Source: an uncultured Chitinophagales bacterium
Lineage (GTDB): Bacteria > Bacteroidota > Bacteroidia > Chitinophagales > JAHDHT01
Assembly: GCA_938023075.1 (NCBI GenBank)
Contig: CALHDG010000005.1
Coordinates: 1 to 47,732 of the forward strand
Length of the DNA stretch: 47,732 nucleotides
Reading direction: 5' to 3'
Part shown: positions 19,369 through 47,732 of the stretch, piece by piece
How positions within the stretch are numbered: position 1 is the stretch's first letter
Layout: the number at the start of each line of letters is the position of its first letter
The notes under the pieces: generated by a model
Databases searched by the model: none
The model's input: the letters and a program-made list of their open reading frames with translations, nothing else
What the model was told of the DNA's origin: nothing
Translations under genes and position numbers: made by a program

Positions 19369-19591
19369 ACTTAAGTTTCGGCAGTAGTATTTATTTCATA
19401 ATAACTTGAATATAAATTATTTATGGAAATTGAAGTACTCTATAAGGTTAAGTAAACTTAATTCAACATATAAAGCATAAAATCATCCAAGTGAACCTAT
19501 TAACTTGTTGTTGTAAAGTGGTTAAGCATTTGTTGACACATTGGAACAAGTTCCATTGGAATAGCAATTACTTTACTACCGAAACTTAAGT
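19369..19591 (+). mobile_element. MITE family 2, copy 1 (223 bp, 5-bp target-site duplication)
   Basis: Perfect terminal inverted repeat ACTTAAGTTTCGG at both ends, extending imperfectly to about 18 bp, flanked by TAATA at 19,364-19,368 and 19,592-19,596. The copy at 47,127-47,346 matches along its whole length. The interior has a palindrome GGAACAAGTTCC and no coding capacity. It lies 33 bp upstream of the LRR gene's ATG. Confidence 0.85.
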
Positions 19592-46646: not shown

Positions 46647-46727
46647 AATTGTCATTTTAATTTATTGGTTCAACTTTCATTTTTAATGAGAACAGTAGTT
46701 ATTTGAATATACAAGGAAAGCCGAACT

Positions 46728-46788
46728 AATTCCCCTTCAAATGTTGAAGGGGTGGGCTTTTACGTAAGAAAAAGGTCGGGGTAGTTTA
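46728..46788 (+). repeat. Double-hairpin repeat family 6, copy 2
   Basis: CCCCTTCAAATGTTGAAGGG followed by TGGGCTTTTACGTAAGAAAAAG and GTCGGGGTAGTT; the same design as 34,749-34,806 with compensating stem changes. Confidence 0.6.
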
Positions 46789-46793
46789 AAAAC

Positions 46794-46958
46794 TTATAAA
46801 AGCCTTTTCAATTTACATATAGTACTAAAAGTGATTTTGCGAAATTCGTTCATTTCGGTTTCTAAGTTTTCTGATGATACTACGAATACGGTTTTTGCAG
46901 CTTCCATGAGAAACGGGAAAGGCTGTGCAACCGGGGCTTCATTGTTAGTCGTTCCGGA
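46794..46958 (-). pseudogene. Possible C-terminal gene remnant
   Basis: The minus strand is open from 46,958 to a TAA at 46,794 and reads EAPVAQPFPFLMEAAKTVFV and then NEFRKITFSTICKLKRLL. An internal ATG (46,907) would give only 37 residues. A stop at 46,959-46,961 inside the small hairpin GTTAGTC/GACTAAC cuts the frame upstream. The sequence looks protein-like, but I cannot name the family and the evidence is thin. Confidence 0.3.
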
Positions 46959-46961
46959 CTA

Positions 46962-47126
46962 ACGAAGACTTAGTTGTTACGTGTCTATATTTTTACTTTT
47001 AATCCCGAGTGAAATTCGCTCTTCGAAAATTTGAATATCAAATATTTGCCAATCCTTATTCTTTATCCTTTAACCATTCGAATCGGTCTTCTCATCAATT
47101 TCATCGAGCAGGGAGAATACTTGATT
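46962..47126. other. Non-coding residue with a displaced 3' coding tail
   Basis: 47,080-47,126 on the minus strand encodes VFSLLDEIDEKTDSNG and a TAA, the lost C-terminus of the small gene at 47,331-47,507 (see findings). I see no feature in the rest, to 47,040. Confidence 0.45.
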
Positions 47127-47346
47127 ACTTAAGTTTCGGTAGTAGTATTTATTTCATAGTAACTTGAATATAAATTATTTACGGAAATTGAAGTACACAA
47201 TAAGGTTAAGGAATAATTCAACATATAAAGCATAAAGTCATCCAAGTGAACCTGTTCACTTGTTGTAGTAAAGTTGCTATGCTTTTGTTAACACCATGGA
47301 ACAGGTTCCATTGGAACAGCAATTATTTTACTACCGAAACTTAAGT
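47127..47346 (+). mobile_element. MITE family 2, copy 2 (220 bp, 5-bp target-site duplication)
   Basis: Terminal inverted repeat ACTTAAGTTTCGG at both ends, flanked by TGATT at 47,122-47,126 and 47,347-47,351. It matches the copy at 19,369-19,591 over its whole length. It is inserted in the 3' part of a small minus-strand gene. No transposase. Confidence 0.85.
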
Positions 47347-47507
47347 TGATTATTTACAAGGTCTGCAAATTCTTTGAACAGCCTTTCCTGCTCAAGACTA
47401 AATGCTTTTTTTTGAATTTTCCCTGATAACAATCCAATCTTGATTGATTGAACCTCTATTACGGCTATTTCATTTCCATCTTTGTCTTGAAGAATTATGT
47501 TATCCAT
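47331..47507 (-). CDS. Small protein of unknown function, C-terminus replaced by MITE sequence
   Basis: The minus strand from ATG 47,507 encodes 58 residues: MDNIILQDKDGNEIAVIEV, a short basic stretch (SIKIGLLSGKIQKKAF), and a helix (SLEQERLFKEFADLVNNQ). It then ends in LKFR and a TAG supplied by the inverted terminal repeat of the MITE. Deleting the MITE and one TGATT duplicate restores a longer frame that continues VFSLLDEIDEKTDSNG to a TAA (70 residues). The protein is soluble, with a beta-hairpin start and a helical end. I do not recognise the family. No Shine-Dalgarno or clear promoter is visible. Confidence 0.55.
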   Translation of the reverse strand: MDNIILQDKDGNEIAVIEVQSIKIGLLSGKIQKKAFSLEQERLFKEFADLVNNQLKFR

Positions 47508-47534
47508 TTATAGTATTATATGACTCGAAACGAT

Positions 47535-47715
47535 TTGGCTAAACACCGTGCGGATTATCGAAGCCCAAAACCCGGCAAACCGACCGCCTTGAACCAAAAT
47601 TTTATTTTGCAATTTAATTTAGTTCCCACAAATTGTCGAAATAAAATTTTGGTGGTTGTGATGCTGGTCGCCCGAAATCCCGACCGAGACCGCATGTTGT
47701 TTGAGCCCCTGTTAT
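47535..47715. repeat. Long imperfect inverted repeat with a perfect 15-bp core stem
   Basis: ACCAAAATTTTATTT (about 47,595-47,609) is exactly complementary to AAATAAAATTTTGGT (about 47,639-47,653). Further out, GGCTAAACACCGTGCGG on the left corresponds to GGCTCAAACAACATGCGG on the reverse of the right. The structure may be a fold-back element or a recombination-site-like palindrome; the right flank (AGCCCATAACAGGGG on the minus strand) runs to the window edge. Confidence 0.5.
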
Positions 47716-47732
47716 GGGCTGGCTACTTTCTA

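Follow-up and report, generated by a model that had tools for sequence, protein, structure and literature searches.

A small gene with two lesions in an integron-type cassette of a Chitinophagales genome: a probable pseudogene split by a MITE

On the minus strand of a 47,732-nucleotide stretch of DNA from an uncultured Chitinophagales bacterium (the whole stretch analyzed is referred to below as the window), the frame starting at ATG 47507 encodes 54 residues down to NNQ and then acquires LKFR and a stop codon within a MITE. The locus raises the question of which gene stood here before the interruption, how far it extended and how it could have reached this place. The first-pass annotation read it as a small minus-strand gene cut by a recent MITE insertion, the removal of which would restore a protein of 70 residues. 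The split itself is confirmed, as are the MITE, the TGATT pair and the joined frame. The length and the age of the lesion are read differently here. The feature is likely a pseudogene, derived from an ancestor of about 101 codons that was carried in an integron-type cassette of a Chitinophagales (Bacteroidota) genome and bearing two lesions, the MITE and an in-frame TAA (Table 1).

Table 1. Coordinates of the broken gene, the inserted element and the cassette borders in the window
Feature	Position	Strand	Remark
MITE, 220 bp, 18-bp perfect inverted repeats, inner palindromes	47127..47346		Repeat family in the genome
Target-site duplication TGATT, left copy	47122..47126		Read in the sequence
Target-site duplication TGATT, right copy	47347..47351		Read in the sequence
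5' part of the broken gene	47347..47507	-	ATG 47507 to NNQ, one TGATT copy included
3' part of the broken gene	46977..47126	-	16 codons, in-frame TAA, 30 further codons, TAA 46979-46977; colinear with both homologues
In-frame TAA, the putative second lesion and the gene end of the first-pass annotation	47070..47072	-	Within the ancestral frame
attC-like site preceding the cassette, 191 bp	47529..47719	-	R'' GCCCATAAC (47719-47711), R' GTT 47531-47529
R''-like box GACACGTAAC of the cassette's own site	46976..46985	-	Overlaps the ancestral stop; position fixed by likeness to contig C192
attC-like 5' half	46923..46999	-	61/78 columns identical to the array end on contig C192; 3' half not recognised

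As a lesion, the insertion is ordinary and routine. No ORF within the element reaches 60 aa, and its family is represented in the genome by at least 40 near-full-length matches (all 40 of the candidates scored, out of 187). Terminal-repeat copies with at most two mismatches number 88 and 93, against 1 and 0 in a control with the repeat reversed. Among the 20 copies read, exact target duplications of 5 bases or more flank 18; one further copy has 3 bases only, and one has none. An autonomous partner carrying the MITE ends was sought by eye among the repeat positions listed, and no clear pair at insertion-sequence spacing was seen there. A second copy of the same family lies within the window (19369-19591). 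The palindromes AAGTGAACCTGTTCACTT and TGGAACAGGTTCCA (47241-47315) have a common core and are among the best conserved stretches of the MITE. The description of the insertion as recent is unsupported: the nearest sister elements among the copies read are 97% identical, most of the other copies have likewise retained theirs as target duplications, and a further stop lies in the gene.

Joining the flanks with one TGATT copy (a scripted join) gives VFSLLDEIDEKTDSNG followed by TAA, 70 codons in total. The MITE and one target copy together make 225 bases, a number divisible by 3. The restored frame had been taken as strong evidence that the gene was real; with a local G+C content of 35%, 16 open codons after the join are expected by chance with a probability of about 0.31. 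Since the open stretch is thus weak evidence when taken alone, the reality of the gene has to be judged from uninterrupted homologues, the presence of which in other genomes had been proposed as the check.

Two such homologues were found. A search of 59 genomes of relatives with the 54-residue piece gave matches at E <= 0.1 in three genomes, the window's own among them. The first homologue (h1, genome G010, L022:835-1140(-); 38% identity, E 1.8e-4) is an intact frame of 101 aa in Chitinophagales bacterium isolate PL23a_bin.6, which belongs to the same order as the window. A match in another genome of this search (G056, E 0.06) lies inside a 497-aa frame and was dropped. A profile of two rows (A1) was then run over 395 genomes of the class and matched in 17 of them. 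The second homologue (h2, genome G111, L076:1477-1773(-)) was obtained with E 6.5e-12 and is an intact frame of 98 aa; the window's own match was kept as well, and 15 of the 17 genomes, with E-values of 0.0023 to 0.05, were set aside as probable noise. Neither of these two well-supported homologues ends at NNQ, an outcome that had been named as refuting the gene. With the diagonal fixed and no gaps allowed, the 16 post-join residues reach a score of 24 against h1, equalled by 1 of 20000 shuffles, and of 34 against h2, equalled by none of 20000. When the same 16 residues are aligned alone and freely, 6 of 2000 shuffles are as good for h2, and 260 of 2000 for h1, which is not clear.

The protein family itself carries no name. 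Nothing exceeded the cut-offs of Pfam, NCBIfam or PADLOC for the gene or its homologues, and no Rfam match was obtained in the window. Scanning of genome_contigs gave no match with the 54-residue piece and only G010 again with profile A1, and scans of viral_contigs and plasmids for the gene family gave none. Judged by sequence similarity, the gene is a member of an unnamed small-protein family.

Both homologues continue for about 30 residues beyond the position of the TAA in the window. On the fixed diagonal, the similarity of this stretch is equalled by 47 (h1) and 83 (h2) of 20000 shuffles, and by 25 of 20000 jointly. Aligned alone and freely, it does not rise above chance (822 and 962 of 2000 shuffles are as good). 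Because the free alignment is not significant, homology past the TAA is taken from the fixed-diagonal test and from a blind profile match. The latter was obtained with a second profile (A2), which combined h1 and h2 with the window's 5' piece and left out its 3' piece. Run over the same 395 genomes, it matched the window at 47013-47141(-), with one TAA inside (E 9.4e-4). Profile A2 gave matches in 7 of the 395 genomes, of which the two pieces in the window and a frame in genome G680 were kept. This frame of 108 aa (E 4.5e-4), to which one hhalign comparison assigned a probability of 91, is probably a third homologue, and it is called only probable because its E-value is close to those of the dropped matches. 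The latter came from 5 of the 7 genomes, with E-values of 0.0012 to 0.0044 and frames of 171 to 749 aa.

The homologues and the window's own frame both continue past the TAA, and therefore the ancestor would have had about 101 residues and suffered two lesions. The ancestral frame counts 102 codons with the stop (101 without it), and the homologues measure 101 and 98 aa. The 70-codon frame proposed earlier thus stands as a joined frame, and its stop is real, but as the length of the ancestral protein it falls short. The gene had been placed at 47080-47507; the start agrees, and the TAA at 47072-47070 lies just beyond the other limit. The alternative that a protein of 70 residues truly ended at this TAA and was cut once by a recent MITE agrees with the stop of the joined frame and with the fit of the 16 post-join residues to the homologues. 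It is nevertheless quite unlikely, given that the homologues run on and that the window frame can be aligned up to a stop at the cassette border. It also leaves about 84 bases unexplained between the end of the 70 codons and the R''-like box. The TAA itself could be an assembly error.

Under another alternative, a truncated form of 58 residues, the 54 followed by LKFR encoded in the MITE, is still produced and functional. Its 58-codon frame is intact and keeps the start and the upstream cassette border. Such a product would be without helix two and the C-terminal portion of the structure model, itself of low confidence (pLDDT 63.6, two sequences), and the homologues conserve the residues that it would lose. 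A second gene copy, which might have accounted for relaxed constraint, was not found in the window genome. A working truncated protein is thus very unlikely, and two lesions in a gene of about 101 codons remain the preferred reading.

This length also agrees with the setting of the gene. Integron attC sites carry the boxes R'' (NNNYAAC) and R' (GTTRNNN) at their borders, the first bases of each cassette are complementary to the R'' box of that same cassette, and cassette genes are usually tightly packed between recombination sites. Between the ATG and the R' end of the attC-like site that precedes it lie 21 bases. This site belongs to a repeat of about 190 bases with at least 11 copies in the genome (at least 82% identity over at least 178 bases). 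In the orientation of the gene, conservation runs from TAAC(A) to GTT and the outer bases vary (10 aligned sites); we take these borders to be the border pattern of integron attC sites. The site folds as an imperfect palindrome (z -3.30; none of 200 shuffles folds as well). The fold of the remnant of the distal site in the window is not outstanding (z -0.71). Since the ancestral gene spans the cassette from 21 bases past R' to the R'' box, the cassette fits 101 codons and not 70.

Complementarity between cassette ends was checked at the sites where the contig continues and a box was found. In the window, the cassette start GTTTCGAGTC is complementary to the R''-like box GACACGTAAC at 8 of 10 positions (read by eye). 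The start of the cassette and the R'' at its far end match at 10 of 10 positions on contig C274 (by eye) and at 10 of 10 on C251. The cassette running from contig C189 into the window gives 9 of 10; an exact overlap of 141 bases suggests that C189 joins the window, and the box match supports the junction. For the attC-like site at C274 6481-6658, no matching cassette start was found within 5 kb. Two further observations concern the repeats of this genome. Positions 46681-46812 of the window belong to a repeat family for which the genome gives more than 40 matches, in places closely successive (C64, C207). One and the same cassette end, GATGCCTAAC, stands before different cassettes on four contigs (L046:1-58, L049:4171-4218, L052:6552-6603 and L050:1-26), which suggests that one cassette recurs in several arrays.

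No protein exceeded the curated TIGR02249 cut-off for integron integrases in the window genome (G000, 97% complete), and a complete integron, which would need IntI with attI, is accordingly not recognised. The window site together with C189:801-987 makes at least two attC-like sites with no neighbouring integrase and would count as a CALIN. Among 298 genomes sampled from the order, an integron integrase passed the cut-off only in G017, where it lies at L101:1501-2440 (TIGR02249, 422 bits; confirmed with NCBIfam). Four other tyrosine recombinases are present in the window genome. Cassettes by attC-like sites (L046, L047, L054, L060) carry HigB-type pairs, an Mrr-type endonuclease, a TIR protein, a TmtA-like fragment and a PD-DExK protein; the HigB-type pair is also matched by PD-Lambda-2 models. 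Repeated cassettes (L048, L049, L058) encode a secreted M12-type protease and LRR proteins and have the common start bases GTTACTTGC.

The 190-bp repeats could also be something other than attC, either the intergenic repeats that recombinase-linked immunity clusters carry or a palindromic MITE. The missing integron integrase in the assembly, the unusual length (typical attC sites are shorter than about 190 bp) and the four other tyrosine recombinases are in line with this possibility. It is nonetheless unlikely, since the TAAC/GTT borders are abrupt with variable outer bases, the genes are co-oriented, the ends of three cassettes are complementary over 9-10 nt, and the cargo (toxin-antitoxin pairs, TIR, restriction enzyme) is typical of cassettes. 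An integron-type cassette therefore remains the preferred setting.

The role of the intact protein could be approached through the neighbours of its homologues. In G010, a gene with the TIGR03696 Rhs core (L022:1152-2552) stops a few bases before the start of h1. In G680, an Rhs core (TIGR03696, L094:165-983) is separated from the probable homologue by one gene. Because h1 lies directly behind an Rhs-core gene and the probable third homologue lies in another Rhs locus, immunity against the toxin tip of an Rhs-type polymorphic toxin appears to be the likeliest role, with about even chances of being correct. The neighbourhood of h2 in G111 has no Rhs gene in the 11 kb read; it consists of small genes, separated (L093:4095-5565) by 35-nt repeats with a hairpin. 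These repeats, which are presumably of the REP type, were not counted as attC sites. No toxin gene was found beside the window gene, in the window or on C189. A search of PDB with the structure model gave no match at E <= 0.001, and with so weak a model and no match, no firm reading is drawn from the fold.

A competing reading, with chances somewhat short of even, is that the family is a small protein of another function that travels by chance with Rhs loci and cassettes. It is favoured by the lack of a family over the cut-offs and of a fold match, as well as by the absence of an Rhs gene from the 11 kb read around h2. The position of h1 immediately behind the Rhs-core gene and the second Rhs locus with the probable homologue argue against chance and for the immunity role.

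The history of the locus could be reconstructed as follows. An intact gene of about 101 codons would have begun just after R' of the preceding site and stopped at its own R'' box, having been acquired as a cassette, possibly as an orphan immunity gene, by site-specific recombination. The mobilisation could have been performed by an integron integrase supplied earlier or in trans. The high-copy MITE would have entered after codon 54, making the 5-bp target duplication, and the in-frame TAA would have arisen 16 codons beyond the MITE join, in either order. The two lesions would have ended the gene and presumably its function. Of this history, the sequence itself shows the MITE and the join, the homology running through the join and beyond the TAA, and the cassette-type borders; the immunity function, the mobilisation and the loss of function are inferred. 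A wider generalisation is offered tentatively and is rather doubtful: Chitinophagales might keep dispersed integron-type arrays with attC sites of about 190 bp that store anti-phage genes (TIR, restriction, toxin-antitoxin) together with genes against rival cells (orphan Rhs immunity), the unused cassettes decaying by MITEs and stops.

The cassette context is what makes a routine lesion moderately interesting, and this kind of array is rarely reported in the group. The Rhs neighbours give an unnamed small-protein family a role that can be tested, and an immunity-like gene is met as a cassette. According to the available part of the IntegronFinder 2.0 paper (PMC9024848), very few integrons have been reported in the phylum: Bacteroidetes earlier had In0 elements only, and one complete integron is reported, in Salinibacter ruber. 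attC-type arrays in a Chitinophagales genome are of interest against this background. Two related themes are already known, namely integrons that store defence genes and, in Bacteroidales, orphan immunity genes. Judged by title or the start of the abstract, none of the papers listed for integrons with Rhs and immunity proteins, with Chitinophagales, or with Saprospiraceae or Bacteroidota (PMC8352920 and PMC10963911 among them) describes the present case.

Compared with known systems, the inserted element resembles other MITEs in its shortness, high copy number, perfect terminal inverted repeats, 5-bp target duplication and lack of coding capacity; it differs in its two conserved inner palindromes, and no autonomous parent was identified among the positions listed. 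The gene resembles the orphan immunity genes of polymorphic toxins, among them those of acquired interbacterial defence clusters in gut Bacteroidales (PMC12247911, PMC5361080), in being small, having Rhs-linked relatives and standing apart from a toxin. In contrast to them, it lies in an attC-type cassette and is broken, and its immunity role is putative. The arrays share with the sedentary chromosomal integrons and CALINs described in the excerpted text of PMC9024848 the cassette-type borders, the co-oriented small genes, the toxin-antitoxin and defence cargo and the absence of an integrase nearby, whereas they differ in their sites of about 190 bp and in their host order, Chitinophagales.
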